Shown here piece after piece: positions 15,580-56,602 of a DNA stretch of 64,000 nucleotides. Position 1 is the first letter of the stretch, and every line of letters begins with the position of its first letter. The notes under the pieces are model-generated. The model made no database searches. It was given only the letters and a program-made list of their open reading frames with translations, and had not been told where the DNA came from. Source of the DNA: Thermoleophilum album (GTDB lineage: Bacteria > Actinomycetota > Thermoleophilia > Solirubrobacterales > Thermoleophilaceae); contig NZ_FNWJ01000002.1 of NCBI RefSeq assembly GCF_900108055.1, forward strand, positions 72,382 to 136,381. Reading direction: 5' to 3'. Made by a program: the position numbers and the translations under genes.

Positions 15580-17547
15580 TCAACTGTCCCTCGGGGTGGC
15601 GCCGCCACCGGCAGCGACCGCAGCGGGCCTGCGGCTCGGGAAGTAGGCGTGCACAGCACCCGGCGTCCCGAACGGATAAGGACCAGCAACCACCGTTGGT
15701 ACCTCAGCGAAGTTGAACTTCGGGGGAGGCGACGGCACCAGCCATTCGATCGTATGGGCCTGCCACGGATTAGCAGGTGCCGGAGGCCCAAACCGCCAAC
15801 TCACGATCATGTTGTAAAGGAAAACGAGGAACGACAGCCCGAAGATGAAGCCCGATACGGATACCACCGCGTTCAAGGCCGCGAACTCTGAAGCGTAGTC
15901 TGCCACGCGGCGCGGCATTCCTTCGATGCCCAGCAAGTGCATCGGGCCGAACGTCAAGTTGAAGAAGATGAACGACAACCAGAAGTGAACCTTGCCTAGC
16001 GTCTCGTCGTACATGCGACCAGTCATCTTCGGGAACCAGTGATAAATGCCAGCGAAAATCGTGAACACCGAGCCTCCGAACAGCACGTAGTGGATATGGG
16101 CGACGACATAGTAAGTGTCGGAGACGTGAATGTCGAAGGGGACGATCGCGAGCGTGACACCACTGATGCCACCGAGCGTGAACATCGTGATGAACCCGAG
16201 TGAGAACAGTAGGGGCGTGCGCAAGTGAATCACGCCACGCCAAAGCGTTCCCAGCCAGTTGAAGATCTTTACGCCGGTAGGCACTGCAATCAGCATCGTC
16301 GTCAGCATCATCGGGATCCGGATCCACGCCTGCATCCCGGATACGAACATGTGGTGCGCCCACACTGCGAAGCCGAGAACGACGATCGCGATCAGCGCGT
16401 AGGCCATCATCTTGTAACCGAACACGGGTTTACGCGCGTGGGCCGAAATCACTTCGCTAACGATGCCGAAGCCCGGCAACATCATGATGTAGACGGCCGG
16501 ATGCGAGTAGAACCAGAAGACGTGCTGATACATCAGCACGTCGCCGCCGAGCTGGGGTGTGAAGAAGTGCGTGCCTAGTGCGCGATCAAAGAGCACAAAG
16601 AACTGCGAGGCGGCGATAAAGGGCGTGGCTATAACGACCAGCAGTGACGTCGCGAAGTTCGCCCAGACGAGCAAGGGCATACGCCAGAACGTCATGTCCG
16701 GAGCACGCATCGTGATGATCGTGACCAGGAAGTTCAGGGCGGTGGCGATCGATGACGCTCCGGCGAACTGCACGGCGAGCGTGAAGAACTGTTGCCCGAG
16801 CGGCATGTCGACGGACAGCGGTGCGTAGGCCGTCCACCCAGTAGCGAAGGGGCCACCGGGAGCAAAAAAGCTGAGCAGCATCATCACGCCAGCGATCGGG
16901 AGGAACCAGTAAGAGAGGGCATTGAGGCGGGGGAACGCCATGTCTGGCGCGCCGATCATCAACGGCACCACGTAGTTAGCGATGCCCGCAAATACCGGGA
17001 TGATGAATAGGAAGATCATCAAGGAGGCGTGCACGGAGAACAGACCGTTGAAGGTATTGGCGTCGACAAACTGCTCACCCGGAGCCAGCAACTCAGCGCG
17101 CATCAACATCGCCATTAAGCCGCCAAGTACGAAGAAGAAGAAAGTCGTGCAGATGTATTGGATTCCGATGACCTTGTGGTCGGTATTTACGCGGAAGTAG
17201 TCGCGCCAACTGTCGGCGCCGTGGCCGGAATGATCCTCGGGCTCAGTGGGTGCGCCGAACGCCCAGCGCAGCCAGTAGTCGAAGCAGCCCATCCCGAGCA
17301 GGAAGGCGAGCGGGACGGTGATCAGCGCGACGGTCGTGATCGCCTCGCCTTTGAACAGTGGCTGCCAACCGTAGGCCGCACGGACTGCCACGACGAGGGC
17401 CACCGCAAGCGCGAAGCCCAGTGGCATCGCTACGAGCGCGCGCCACCAGCCGGGACGCATGAGTCGTCGCCAACCACGCTGCTGGCGGCCTTGCGGCGCT
17501 GTTCCGGCTTCGCCGTGGCTCCGCTCGTGCTCGACCGCTACGGCCAC
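15580..17547 (-). CDS. coxA: Cytochrome c oxidase subunit I, A2 type
   Basis: A 655-residue haem-copper oxidase core. Haem a ligands are His173 (SVHASLM) and His486, haem a3 ligand His484 (AHIHYVLFGG). CuB ligands are His349 with the cross-linked Tyr353, and His398-His399 (WAHHMF). The helix VI motif is YSHPAVY, so the A1 glutamate is absent and replaced by the Tyr-Ser pair that defines A2 oxidases such as Thermus and Rhodothermus caa3. Two extra helices (about residues 40-60 and 69-90) precede the usual core. It sits 28 bp after coxB. Confidence 0.96.
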   Translation of the reverse strand: MAVAVEHERSHGEAGTAPQGRQQRGWRRLMRPGWWRALVAMPLGFALAVALVVAVRAAYGWQPLFKGEAITTVALITVPLAFLLGMGCFDYWLRWAFGAPTEPEDHSGHGADSWRDYFRVNTDHKVIGIQYICTTFFFFVLGGLMAMLMRAELLAPGEQFVDANTFNGLFSVHASLMIFLFIIPVFAGIANYVVPLMIGAPDMAFPRLNALSYWFLPIAGVMMLLSFFAPGGPFATGWTAYAPLSVDMPLGQQFFTLAVQFAGASSIATALNFLVTIITMRAPDMTFWRMPLLVWANFATSLLVVIATPFIAASQFFVLFDRALGTHFFTPQLGGDVLMYQHVFWFYSHPAVYIMMLPGFGIVSEVISAHARKPVFGYKMMAYALIAIVVLGFAVWAHHMFVSGMQAWIRIPMMLTTMLIAVPTGVKIFNWLGTLWRGVIHLRTPLLFSLGFITMFTLGGISGVTLAIVPFDIHVSDTYYVVAHIHYVLFGGSVFTIFAGIYHWFPKMTGRMYDETLGKVHFWLSFIFFNLTFGPMHLLGIEGMPRRVADYASEFAALNAVVSVSGFIFGLSFLVFLYNMIVSWRFGPPAPANPWQAHTIEWLVPSPPPKFNFAEVPTVVAGPYPFGTPGAVHAYFPSRRPAAVAAGGGATPRDS

Positions 17548-40125: not shown

Positions 40126-41082
40126 GTGCTGCGCGCGGCTGGCTACGTCGCGTTGGCGGCGGGCGTCGCCGCGCCGCTAGCCCGGCGCCGCCTGCGCTTG
40201 CCGCCGCTCGCTCTGTCGGCGCTTTGCTGGCAGATGCCTGCGACCGCAGCGGCGCTTGCGCCGCCCGGACGAACGCGCGCCGTTGCTGCCTATCTCGCGC
40301 AGATGTGGGCCTACTACGTCCACTACGACATGCCCGACGACGATCCCGAGCGCCTGTTGCGGCGACTGCGGGTCGACTACCCGATCGCTATCGACCGCGC
40401 GCTCGGGGGCGGCGTCTGCCCGACCGTGCGTCTGCAGCGGGCGCTCGCCGGGGGCGGCCGCTTGCGTCCCCACGACTATTTGCTGGCGGCTGCGCATTGG
40501 GCGTGGTTTGCAGTGCCGCATGGCACTGTCGCCTACACCCTGTGGCGGCATCCACAGCGCTTCCCGCGCACGGCGGTGGCCGTCGCGTTCTGCTTCGACC
40601 TGGGGCTGGTCGGCTACTGGGCGGTGCCGACCGCTCCCCCCTGGTGGGCGGCGCGTCAGGGTCGCCTGCCGGCGGTGCGCCGGATCATGGCTGAGGTCGG
40701 GGAACGCGTCTGGGGACGGCTTTGGCAGCCGCTTTACCATTCGGTCGAGGGCAACCCATTCGCGGCGATGCCGTCCCTGCACTTCGGAACATCGGTGGTC
40801 GCGGCGCGCGCTCTCGCCGAGATCGACCGTCGCCACGGAGCCGTCGGCTGGGGTTACGCGCTGACGCTTGGCTTCGCGCTCGTGTATCTCGCGGAGCACT
40901 ACGTCGCTGACCTGATCGCTGGGGCTGTCGTCGCGGAGCTTGCCTGGCAACTCGCGGGCCGCGTGGTTCGCGAGCGCGCCGCCTTCCAACTCGATCCTCA
41001 GGCGGCGACCAACGGCCGCGTCCCGCGAGCCCTGCTTGCTAGCGCGCAAGCGGGCCCGCGCTCGGCGGGCGCAGCGCGATGA
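40126..41082 (+). CDS. PAP2-superfamily membrane protein (inositolphosphotransferase-like)
   Basis: A 318-residue integral membrane protein. The phosphatase/transferase core is AMPSLHFGTSVVAARAL and LAEHYVADLIAGAVVAEL, the second and third PAP2 motifs, near residues 220-285. The arrangement resembles the PAP2_3 group, which includes inositol phosphorylceramide synthase and related inositolphosphotransferases. GTG 40126 has GGGGAT upstream; TTG 40111 is an alternative. The 3' end overlaps the flippase-like gene by 4 nt, suggesting joint action on a lipid-linked substrate. Confidence 0.78.
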   Translation: MLRAAGYVALAAGVAAPLARRRLRLPPLALSALCWQMPATAAALAPPGRTRAVAAYLAQMWAYYVHYDMPDDDPERLLRRLRVDYPIAIDRALGGGVCPTVRLQRALAGGGRLRPHDYLLAAAHWAWFAVPHGTVAYTLWRHPQRFPRTAVAVAFCFDLGLVGYWAVPTAPPWWAARQGRLPAVRRIMAEVGERVWGRLWQPLYHSVEGNPFAAMPSLHFGTSVVAARALAEIDRRHGAVGWGYALTLGFALVYLAEHYVADLIAGAVVAELAWQLAGRVVRERAAFQLDPQAATNGRVPRALLASAQAGPRSAGAAR

Positions 41083-42293
41083 GCGAGCACGGCGACGATC
41101 CTCGCCGCGCCAGCGTCCCGGGGAGCACCTCGCCGAACACGCCGCCTCCCGCCACGGCTGAGGAAGAACTCGACGTCGGTCGACTGCAGACGCTGCTCGG
41201 TGATTGGCAGCGGGTGCTCACCGTTTTCTTCGCTCTGATCGGCGCGCTGGCGGCCGTCTACGTGCTGCTGCCCCGGATCGTCGGTCTCGACGACGCCCTC
41301 GCTCGCCTCGACGACGCGGAACCCCGCTGGCTGGTCGTCGCGCTGCTCTTCAACGTCGCCGCGTTCGGCGCCTACGTGGCGCTGTTTCGTGGTGTTTTGA
41401 TCGGCGTCGAGGATCCCGGCGGGCGCTTGCGCGAGCGGCTCGGACTGCGCGCGTCCTACCAGATCACGATGGCCGGGCTAGCCGCCACACGCCTGTTCTC
41501 AGCCGCCGGCGCGGGCGGCCTTGTCCTCACCTACTGGGCTTTGCGCAAAGCGGGCATCGGGCGCCGCGTAGCGGCCTCGCGGATGGTGGCTTTCCTGGTC
41601 GTGACCTACAGCGTCTACGCCGCCGCAGTGATCGTCTTCGGCTTGCTTTTGCACTTCCATCTGCTGGCCGGTCAGGCGCCACTCGCGGGCACGCTCCTGC
41701 CGGCGCTGTTCGCGGTCGTCGCGAGCGCTGCCTGTCTTTTGGTTGCGCTGATTCCCGAAGACGTCGACCGCCGCATCGCGGCGCTCGCCACGAAACCGCG
41801 CACGGCGCGCTTCGCGCGGCGACTCGGGAGCGTCCCGGCGACCGTCTCCGACGGCGTGCGCGCAGCGATCGAGTTCGCGCGCGACCCGCGGCGCGGAGCG
41901 CTTGCGGTGGGCGGGGCGATTGGCTTCTGGGGCGCGAACATCGGCGTGCTGTGGGCCTGCTTTAAGGCTTACGGAGGAAGCGTGCCGCTGGCCGTTCTGG
42001 TCCAGGGGTTCTTCCTCGGGATGTTCGCGAACGTGATTCCGTCGCCCGCCGCCGGCGCCGGTCCCGTCGATGCGGGCATGATTGCGGCCTTCGCGATGTT
42101 CGGCTTGCCCGCGGCGATTGTCTTTCCGGCCGTGCTTGTCTACCGACTGATCGCGTTCTGGCTGCCGGTGCCCTTGGGGGTGATCGCCTACCTTCAGTTG
42201 CGCCGCACGGTTGCGGCCTGGGAGCGGGAAGACGGGACGGGACGTTATGCTCCTACTTCACAAAGTGAAGTAGCGGCCGCGGAGGCGCGATGA
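41079..42293 (+). CDS. UPF0104/LPG-synthase transmembrane-domain protein (flippase-like)
   Basis: A 404-residue membrane protein with about eight helices of the YbhN/lysylphosphatidylglycerol-synthase N-terminal family, thought to move lipid-linked molecules across the membrane. LRASYQITMAGLAATRLFSA and GMFANVIPSPAAGAGPVDAG are the conserved family motifs. No aminoacyltransferase domain is attached. It is coupled to the PAP2 gene and overlaps the trxB start by 4 nt. A 21-bp palindrome lies inside its last codons. Confidence 0.82.
   Translation: MSEHGDDPRRASVPGSTSPNTPPPATAEEELDVGRLQTLLGDWQRVLTVFFALIGALAAVYVLLPRIVGLDDALARLDDAEPRWLVVALLFNVAAFGAYVALFRGVLIGVEDPGGRLRERLGLRASYQITMAGLAATRLFSAAGAGGLVLTYWALRKAGIGRRVAASRMVAFLVVTYSVYAAAVIVFGLLLHFHLLAGQAPLAGTLLPALFAVVASAACLLVALIPEDVDRRIAALATKPRTARFARRLGSVPATVSDGVRAAIEFARDPRRGALAVGGAIGFWGANIGVLWACFKAYGGSVPLAVLVQGFFLGMFANVIPSPAAGAGPVDAGMIAAFAMFGLPAAIVFPAVLVYRLIAFWLPVPLGVIAYLQLRRTVAAWEREDGTGRYAPTSQSEVAAAEAR
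42246..42273 (+). promoter_or_regulatory. Candidate trxB promoter with perfect 21-bp inverted repeat
   Basis: TATGCT (42246-42251) is followed by CTACTTCAC-AAA-GTGAAGTAG (42253-42273), a perfect inverted repeat with 9-bp arms. It ends 16 nt before the trxB ATG and GGAGG sits between. If TATGCT is a -10, the repeat covers the transcription start as a repressor site would. Confidence 0.5.
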
Positions 42294-43282
42294 GCGAAAC
42301 GCACGAGTACCGGGACCTCGAGAACGTAGTGATCATCGGCAGCGGGCCGGCGGGCTACACGGCCGCGATCTACGCCGCTCGCGCCGATCTCCAACCGCTC
42401 TGCGTGGAGGGGTTCCAGTGGGGCGGTCTGCTGCAACTAACGACTGACGTCGAGAACTACCCCGGGTACCCGGACGGCGTGCAAGGACCACAGATGATGG
42501 CCGACTTCAGGCGCCAGGCCGAGCGCTTCGGGACCCGCTTCCTGAGCGAGGACGCGACCGCCTTGCGGCTCTCGCGGGAGACCGGTGTGCCCCACCTTGT
42601 GGAAGTGGGGGAGCGTTCGATCCGCGCCCGCGCCGTGATCGTCGCTACCGGTACGGAGCCGAAGAAACTCGGTGTTCCGGGTGAAGACGAGTTCGCTGCG
42701 CGCGGCGTCAGCTACTGCGCGACCTGCGACGCCGCGTTTTTCCGCGGTCGCGACACGATCGTCGTCGGTGGGGGCGACACGGCGATGGAGGACGCGACCT
42801 TCCTCGCCAAGTTCGCGCGCAAGGTCACGATCGTGCATCGCCGGCGCGAGTTCCGCGCCTCCGCGATCATGGTCGATCGCGCACGGGCGACCGAGAACAT
42901 CGAGTTCCTCACGCCGTACGTAGTCGAGCGGTTCGAAGGCTCTGAAGCTCTCGAACGGGTTGTGCTCCGCAACCGCGAGGATGGATCGGAGCTGGTGCTC
43001 GAGGCGCAGGGAGCCTTCATCGCGATCGGCCACCGTCCGCGCTCGGAGCTGGTCGCCGATCAGCTGCGCCTCGACGAGCAGGGTTACGTGATCGTTGAAG
43101 ATCGCTCGACGCGCACCGGTGTGCCCGGCGTGTTCGCCTGCGGTGACCTCATCGATCCGGTCTACCGGCAGGCGGTCACGGCGGCCGGCAGCGGCTGTAT
43201 GGCGGCGCTCGACTGCGAGGCTTACCTGCGCGACACAGCTCCCGAGCTGGCGCGAATGAAGGCGGCGGTGGCTCGCGGCTAA
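42290..43282 (+). CDS. trxB: Thioredoxin reductase
   Basis: A 330-residue NADPH-dependent flavoprotein. IIGSGPAGYTAAIYAARADL binds FAD near residue 15; the redox-active dithiol is SYCATCDAAFFRG (CATC near residue 142); VVGGGDTAMEDA binds NADPH; VFACGDLIDPVYRQAVTAAG is the C-terminal FAD motif. Full length. No thioredoxin gene is adjacent. It overlaps the flippase gene by 4 nt yet seems to have its own regulated promoter. Confidence 0.96.
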   Translation: MSETHEYRDLENVVIIGSGPAGYTAAIYAARADLQPLCVEGFQWGGLLQLTTDVENYPGYPDGVQGPQMMADFRRQAERFGTRFLSEDATALRLSRETGVPHLVEVGERSIRARAVIVATGTEPKKLGVPGEDEFAARGVSYCATCDAAFFRGRDTIVVGGGDTAMEDATFLAKFARKVTIVHRRREFRASAIMVDRARATENIEFLTPYVVERFEGSEALERVVLRNREDGSELVLEAQGAFIAIGHRPRSELVADQLRLDEQGYVIVEDRSTRTGVPGVFACGDLIDPVYRQAVTAAGSGCMAALDCEAYLRDTAPELARMKAAVARG

Positions 43283-55819: not shown

Positions 55820-56602
55820 CTACCTCCCGACGAACCGCGCTGGTCGCTTCTCGAGGAAGGCGCGCGTGCCCTCGCGGCGATCCTCGGTCGCCATCGCGAG
55901 CTCGAACAGGCGTCGCTCGTGGGCGAGTCCCGCCGAGAGTGGCAGCTCGTCGGCGGCCAGCACGGCGTCCTTGGCGAGTCGGGCCGCCAGCGGTGCCCGG
56001 CGGGCGACCGTTTGGGCTAGGTCGAGGGCCTCCTCGAGCCAGCGGTCGGCGGGGGCGACGCGGTTGACGAAGCCCAGCCGCTGGGCTTCCTCGGCGGGGA
56101 TCCTGCGGCCCGTCAGCACCAGCTCCATCGTCCGTTGTTTGCCGATCACCCGCGCGAGTCGCTGCGTACCGCCGCCGCCAGGAATGATCCCCAGCCGGAT
56201 CTCGGGTTGGCCGAACTGAGCAGTCTCGGAGGCGACGATCATGTCGCAGGCCAGCGCCAGTTCGCAGCCACCGCCGAGGGCGTAGCCCGAGACCGCTGCG
56301 ATGAGCGGCGTGCGGCAAGCGGCGAGCACCTCCCAAAGGCTTGCGCCGCCAGCTTCCTGGAGCAGATCAGCGAGCTCGCGCTCGCTGAGTTGGGCGATGT
56401 CCGCGCCGGCTGCGAAGTGCTCGTCGTGGCCGGCGATCACGATGCACCGCACCGAGGGGTCGGCATCGTTGCGCCGCAGAGCTGCCGCGAGCTGCTCGCG
56501 CAGCTCGGGCGAAAGGGCGTTGCGCGCCTCGGGACGGTTGAGGCGCAGCAGCACGACGGCGTCGTGCCGCTCCTGGATCAAGACCTTGCGTTCGGCATCC
56601 AC
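55820..56602 (-). CDS. Enoyl-CoA hydratase
   Basis: A 260-residue crotonase with both catalytic glutamates: GYALGGGCELALACDM and FGQPEIRLGIIPGGGGTQRL. FAAGADIAQLSE gives the oxyanion hole. This is the most canonical of the three crotonases in the window. GTG 56602 is chosen because GGGAGGGGGG precedes it; the open frame continues upstream into acyl-CoA dehydrogenase shadow. It lies between acyl-CoA dehydrogenase (20 nt) and hydroxyacyl-CoA dehydrogenase (2 nt) and catalyses the step between them. Confidence 0.95.
   Translation of the reverse strand: MDAERKVLIQERHDAVVLLRLNRPEARNALSPELREQLAAALRRNDADPSVRCIVIAGHDEHFAAGADIAQLSERELADLLQEAGGASLWEVLAACRTPLIAAVSGYALGGGCELALACDMIVASETAQFGQPEIRLGIIPGGGGTQRLARVIGKQRTMELVLTGRRIPAEEAQRLGFVNRVAPADRWLEEALDLAQTVARRAPLAARLAKDAVLAADELPLSAGLAHERRLFELAMATEDRREGTRAFLEKRPARFVGR

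Follow-up and report, generated by a model that had tools for sequence, protein, structure and literature searches.

A palindrome upstream of trxB as a probable operator of an HxlR/DUF24-family regulator in an actinobacterial order

In other actinobacteria, the thioredoxin system is controlled by SigR/RsrA. Regulators of the HxlR/DUF24 family are winged-helix dimers in which a cysteine near the N-terminus acts as the sensor. RsrA is described as a disulfide-stress sensor (PMC4960319). The N-terminal cysteine has been identified as the sensing residue in YodB, HypR, CatR and HxlR (PMC8063818, PMC6943732, PMC7835342), with conserved residues at the N-terminus of HypR, YodB and CatR (PMC6943732). 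YodB of Bacillus subtilis prefers the sequence TACT-N7-AGTA and releases DNA on alkylation of Cys6 (PMC8063818); the targets described for it are azoR1, yodC and catDE (PMC6943732, PMC6212828). Oxidation activates HypR, whose targets are hypR and hypO (PMC6943732), and HxlR is an activator that senses formaldehyde via Cys11 and Lys13 (PMC7835342). Here we describe a palindrome upstream of a thioredoxin reductase gene, which is probably the order-wide operator of a thiol-redox repressor of this family and has a lineage-specific half-site.

The trxB palindrome and its conservation

The window, a stretch of 64,000 nucleotides from Thermoleophilum album, carries the palindrome in the last codons of a flippase-like gene (Table 1). 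The first-pass annotation had reported a perfect 21-bp palindrome at this place, preceded by TATGCT and followed by trxB at a distance of 16 nt, and all of this was confirmed. The two 9-nt arms are 100% complementary and separated by the 3-nt spacer AAA, giving the full sequence CTACTTCACAAAGTGAAGTAG. At the end of the upstream reading frame the surrounding codons read Y-A-P-T-S-Q-S-E-V-A-A-A-E-A-R-stop. A consensus scan near the palindrome revealed neither a full sigma-70 promoter nor a consensus -35. The exact 21-mer occurs as a single copy in the genome.

Table 1. Features of the trxB locus and the candidate regulator gene. Positions are those of the window unless genome and contig are given.
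Feature	Position	Strand	Remarks
trxB operator (predicted role), palindrome CTACTTCAC-AAA-GTGAAGTAG	42253..42273	.	conserved core ACTTCA-N5-TGAAGT
-10-like TATGCT	42246..42251	+	putative promoter role
Shine-Dalgarno-like GGAGG of trxB	42281..42285	+	assigned by eye
trxB, thioredoxin-disulfide reductase, candidate regulated gene	42290..43282	+	ATG at 42290; TIGR01292, 370.2 bits vs cut-off 343.45
LPG_synthase_TM (flippase-like) gene	41079..42293	+	PF03706; putative operator within its frame, in the last codons
HxlR-family regulator gene	G000:C1:250367-250660	minus	PF01638, 74.7 bits vs cut-off 20.8

The argument that a perfect palindrome with 9-bp arms would be improbable unless selected was not upheld as stated. 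Perfect repeats with 9-nt arms and loops of 3-8 nt occurred 13 times in the window compared to 8.35 times in dinucleotide shuffles, and those with a loop of 3 nt four times compared to 1.45. As these counts are not significant, palindromicity alone was rejected as evidence of selection. The sole feature found to be unusual by shuffle statistics was the AT-rich arm, the like of which was absent from 20 shuffles. The significance of the trxB palindrome as a putative operator is based on comparative evidence, not on palindromicity. Further perfect inverted repeats of the window are GACGTGCTGATACATCAGCACGTC at 16519-16542, among its longer short-spaced palindromes, and GAAGCCCAGCCGCTGGGCTTC at 56069-56089 with a loop of 3 nt.

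Sequence comparison within the order covered 40 trxB copies from 39 genomes, and 35 of these copies are preceded by the core ACTTCA-N5-TGAAGT in a form that varies little; shuffled sequence gave no match. The relatives are not independent, so that the shuffle and Fisher figures overstate independence, and the genome counts include incomplete metagenome-derived genomes. The element typically reads GCTATACTTCAGAAAGTAAAGTGA or GCTACTATACAAAGTGAAGTAA. A degenerate palindrome, YACTWYANNNNNTRWAGTR, was found in 36 of 41 genomes, and its reversed control matched very few. Conservation upstream of trxB, proposed in the first-pass annotation as a check, is thus present across the order and fails in the two closest relatives, the same-genus genomes G001 and G002, which also lack the regulator described below. 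In G009, the trxB copy at C6:126746 has the site and the second copy (G009:C19:25039-25974, L024) does not.

The trxB sites of the relatives show no or next to no variation at positions ACT...A and T.AAGT, and positions 5 and 6 are TC, TT or AT. With AT the sequence becomes TACTAT, and where TA precedes the site TATACT arises; one or the other overlaps the upstream half of the site at the relatives' trxB genes. The variation therefore fits a -10 element that may be built into this half. A conserved -35 was not seen at trxB in the relatives. Within the class, the pattern occurred in 24 of the order's 33 genomes and in 6 of 116 genomes from outside it; the reversed control matched 10 of those 116. 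Since, in addition, nearly all of the regulator orthologues checked outside the order are devoid of the site, the predicted operator is order-specific.

A candidate HxlR regulator and its target genes

A scan of the genome for further copies, likewise suggested beforehand, returned only one other exact ACTTCA-N5-TGAAGT core, located at C1:250753-250771 just upstream of an HxlR (DUF24)-family gene. The genome has three HxlR-family genes, and the exact core precedes one of them. The encoded protein belongs to a single-copy orthologue group with the motif CPVC-x7-GKWT, which has members in 37 of the 41 genomes and scores over the PF01638 cut-off. Variants of the CPVC motif are CGVC, CPVS, CPVL and CPVG. 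A clear gap separates the group from the next-best HxlR proteins (<=45% identity); within it, the T. album protein is one of the orthologues that diverge most (62% identity). All group-1 HxlR sequences of the profile search contain the N-terminal cysteine, and the second cysteine of CPVC is not invariant.

The operator core, with 0-2 mismatches of 12, was found upstream of 37/37 orthologue genes, a count for which the search expression itself required the N-terminal cysteine. A putative palindromic operator near the own gene, by which autoregulation is recognized in the HxlR/DUF24 family, is therefore a feature of all 37. Most of the additional same-order orthologues also have the site upstream. 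Another HxlR class (CCSLYH/KRWTG, including G000:C2:848874) was rejected as the regulator, as 13 of its 13 genes lack the site and show 5-6 mismatches. G001, a 95% complete genome on one contig, and G002 contain only this other class, and both regulator and trxB operator are absent. This paired absence in two genomes of the same genus represents a natural experiment on regulon loss. Elsewhere the two were found apart: in G026 and G031 the regulator is encoded but trxB lacks the operator, and the incomplete genomes G007 and G008 have the trxB operator and no detected regulator. Outside the order, orthologues from the class share about 52-66% identity, and nearly all those checked (L277-L299, from other orders of the class) are without an upstream operator; the binding site may have changed there or the role may differ. 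The dedicated redox- or ligand-responsive repressor envisaged by the first-pass annotation thus gains support in the form of a putative HxlR/DUF24 regulator with its own copy of the site.

Apart from trxB and hxlR, the candidate targets in relatives are mostly thiol genes, namely the thioredoxin gene trxA in four genomes and a cysteine synthase gene (cysK/M) in four. Furthermore, a site was found before an ABC exporter of about 589 aa in 12 genomes, which is MsbA-like and under every equivalog cut-off shown, and before a VIT1-family transporter gene in one (G036:C97:3051-3069, L164). The latter possibly links metal handling to the thiol regulon. In T. album, clear sites were confined to trxB and hxlR. 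A one-mismatch core, GCTTCAGTGCTTGAAGT, lies at G000:C1:559781-559797 (L259:1501-1517), where a purH-like ORF ends and an ORF for an ArsR-like regulator follows about 26-42 bp downstream of the site.

At most target genes the operator shares bases with a -10 element of the form TATACT/TACTAT, which suggests repression, or sits just before a GTG start. In several of the genes for cysteine synthase and the exporter, its downstream half ends in or just before the GTG start. The loci at which such a gene appears to begin with a GTG directly at, or shortly beyond, the end of the operator are L162, L163, L166, L160, L174 and L177. This arrangement suggests leaderless transcripts with the operator spanning -10 to +1. 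The exporter and cysteine synthase mRNAs may accordingly be leaderless, with -10 and operator merged.

Repression and competing readings

In the mechanism we propose, a dimer of the HxlR/DUF24 winged-helix regulator would bind ACTTCA-N5-TGAAGT at trxB, where the operator would cover the -10/start region and the bound regulator would block RNA polymerase. Oxidation or alkylation of the conserved N-terminal cysteine, the first of CPVC, would release the regulator and induce trxB. The regulator would also repress its own gene via the same site, and the regulon in related genomes would include thioredoxin, cysteine synthase and the ABC exporter. Direct binding, repression over activation and redox or electrophile sensing are what we infer from the comparisons above. 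The location of the site over the -10/start region makes steric repression relieved by cysteine modification the best reading.

The main rival assumes the same operator and regulator, which would activate trxB upon cysteine modification, in the manner of HypR and HxlR at their targets. HypR is indeed activated on modification (PMC6943732), and HxlR binds DNA better after formaldehyde treatment (PMC7835342). The missing conserved -35 at trxB would suit an activator as well, and at the hxlR promoters the site precedes the -10, a location compatible with activation as well as repression. In contrast, the site overlaps the -10 and the start at trxB and at the genes for the exporter, thioredoxin and cysteine synthase. 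A protein bound there would normally obstruct polymerase, and we therefore consider activation unlikely.

Much less probable is a hairpin in the mRNA by which the ribosome binding site of trxB would be masked or adjusted, the second possibility raised in the first-pass annotation. The RNA of the window folds well just before the Shine-Dalgarno sequence (-21.3 kcal/mol, z -2.83), but of three copies folded only this one stands out from shuffles: a typical relative folds worse than its own shuffles (z +1.42), and another reaches z -1.35. Pairing is broken in most relatives, with pair 5-15 disrupted in 12 and pair 6-14 in 7 of 20 distinct sites. Moreover, the position of the site in the hxlR promoters implies that it is probably not transcribed there. 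Preservation of the site as code for the C-terminus of the upstream protein (T-S-x-S-x-V) would fit its identical phase in the upstream ORF of most relatives, but can practically be dismissed, as in G008, G010, G015, G025, G035 and G040 the phase differs or no long ORF covers the site, and unrelated genes such as hxlR and trxA are preceded by it as well.

Comparison with known systems

Repression by the HxlR/DUF24 regulator would differ from SigR/RsrA control in that the predicted element is an operator to which a regulator binds and not a promoter of the sigma-R type. None of 41 genomes contained RsrA over the TIGR03988 cut-off in the profile search, weaker sub-threshold matches being present. 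A broader proposal, whose chances we rate slightly below even, is that this cysteine-containing regulator instead of SigR/RsrA is the central thiol-stress switch of the order, directly controlling trxB, thioredoxin, cysteine synthase and exporter through a lineage-specific, -10-merged operator, often at apparently leaderless genes. The analysis provides an actinobacterial order with a candidate regulator, operator and regulon for the control of thioredoxin. If correct, a core system of thiol repair is under the direct control of the HxlR family, which is known for genes of the response to quinone, hypochlorite and formaldehyde. A literature search for HxlR with trxB or with Thermoleophilia, in which coverage of subscription journals was thin, yielded nothing relevant; the protein family is known, and the target set, operator and lineage are new to us.

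The structures of HypR, HxlR and YodB are significant sequence matches to the regulator. With YodB it shares family, size and an N-terminal cysteine as predicted sensor, and also the proposed repression of thiol/electrophile-stress genes from a palindromic operator with TACT...AGTA ends. The spacing differs, as the site described here has TACT-N11-AGTA with CTTCA-N5-TGAAG and does not conform to the YodB type. Unlike the candidate regulon, the YodB targets given in PMC6943732 and PMC6212828 do not include trxB, trxA or cysK. HypR (YybR, PDB 4a5m/4a5n) is among the closest solved sequences (E 6e-19), and its Cys14 aligns with the first cysteine of the CPV motif; activation by oxidation and the targets hypR and hypO set it apart from the proposed repressor. 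HxlR (PDB 7bze/7bzd) belongs to the same family and has its Cys11 at the same place, but the residue two positions after the cysteine is lysine in HxlR and valine in the regulator of this order.
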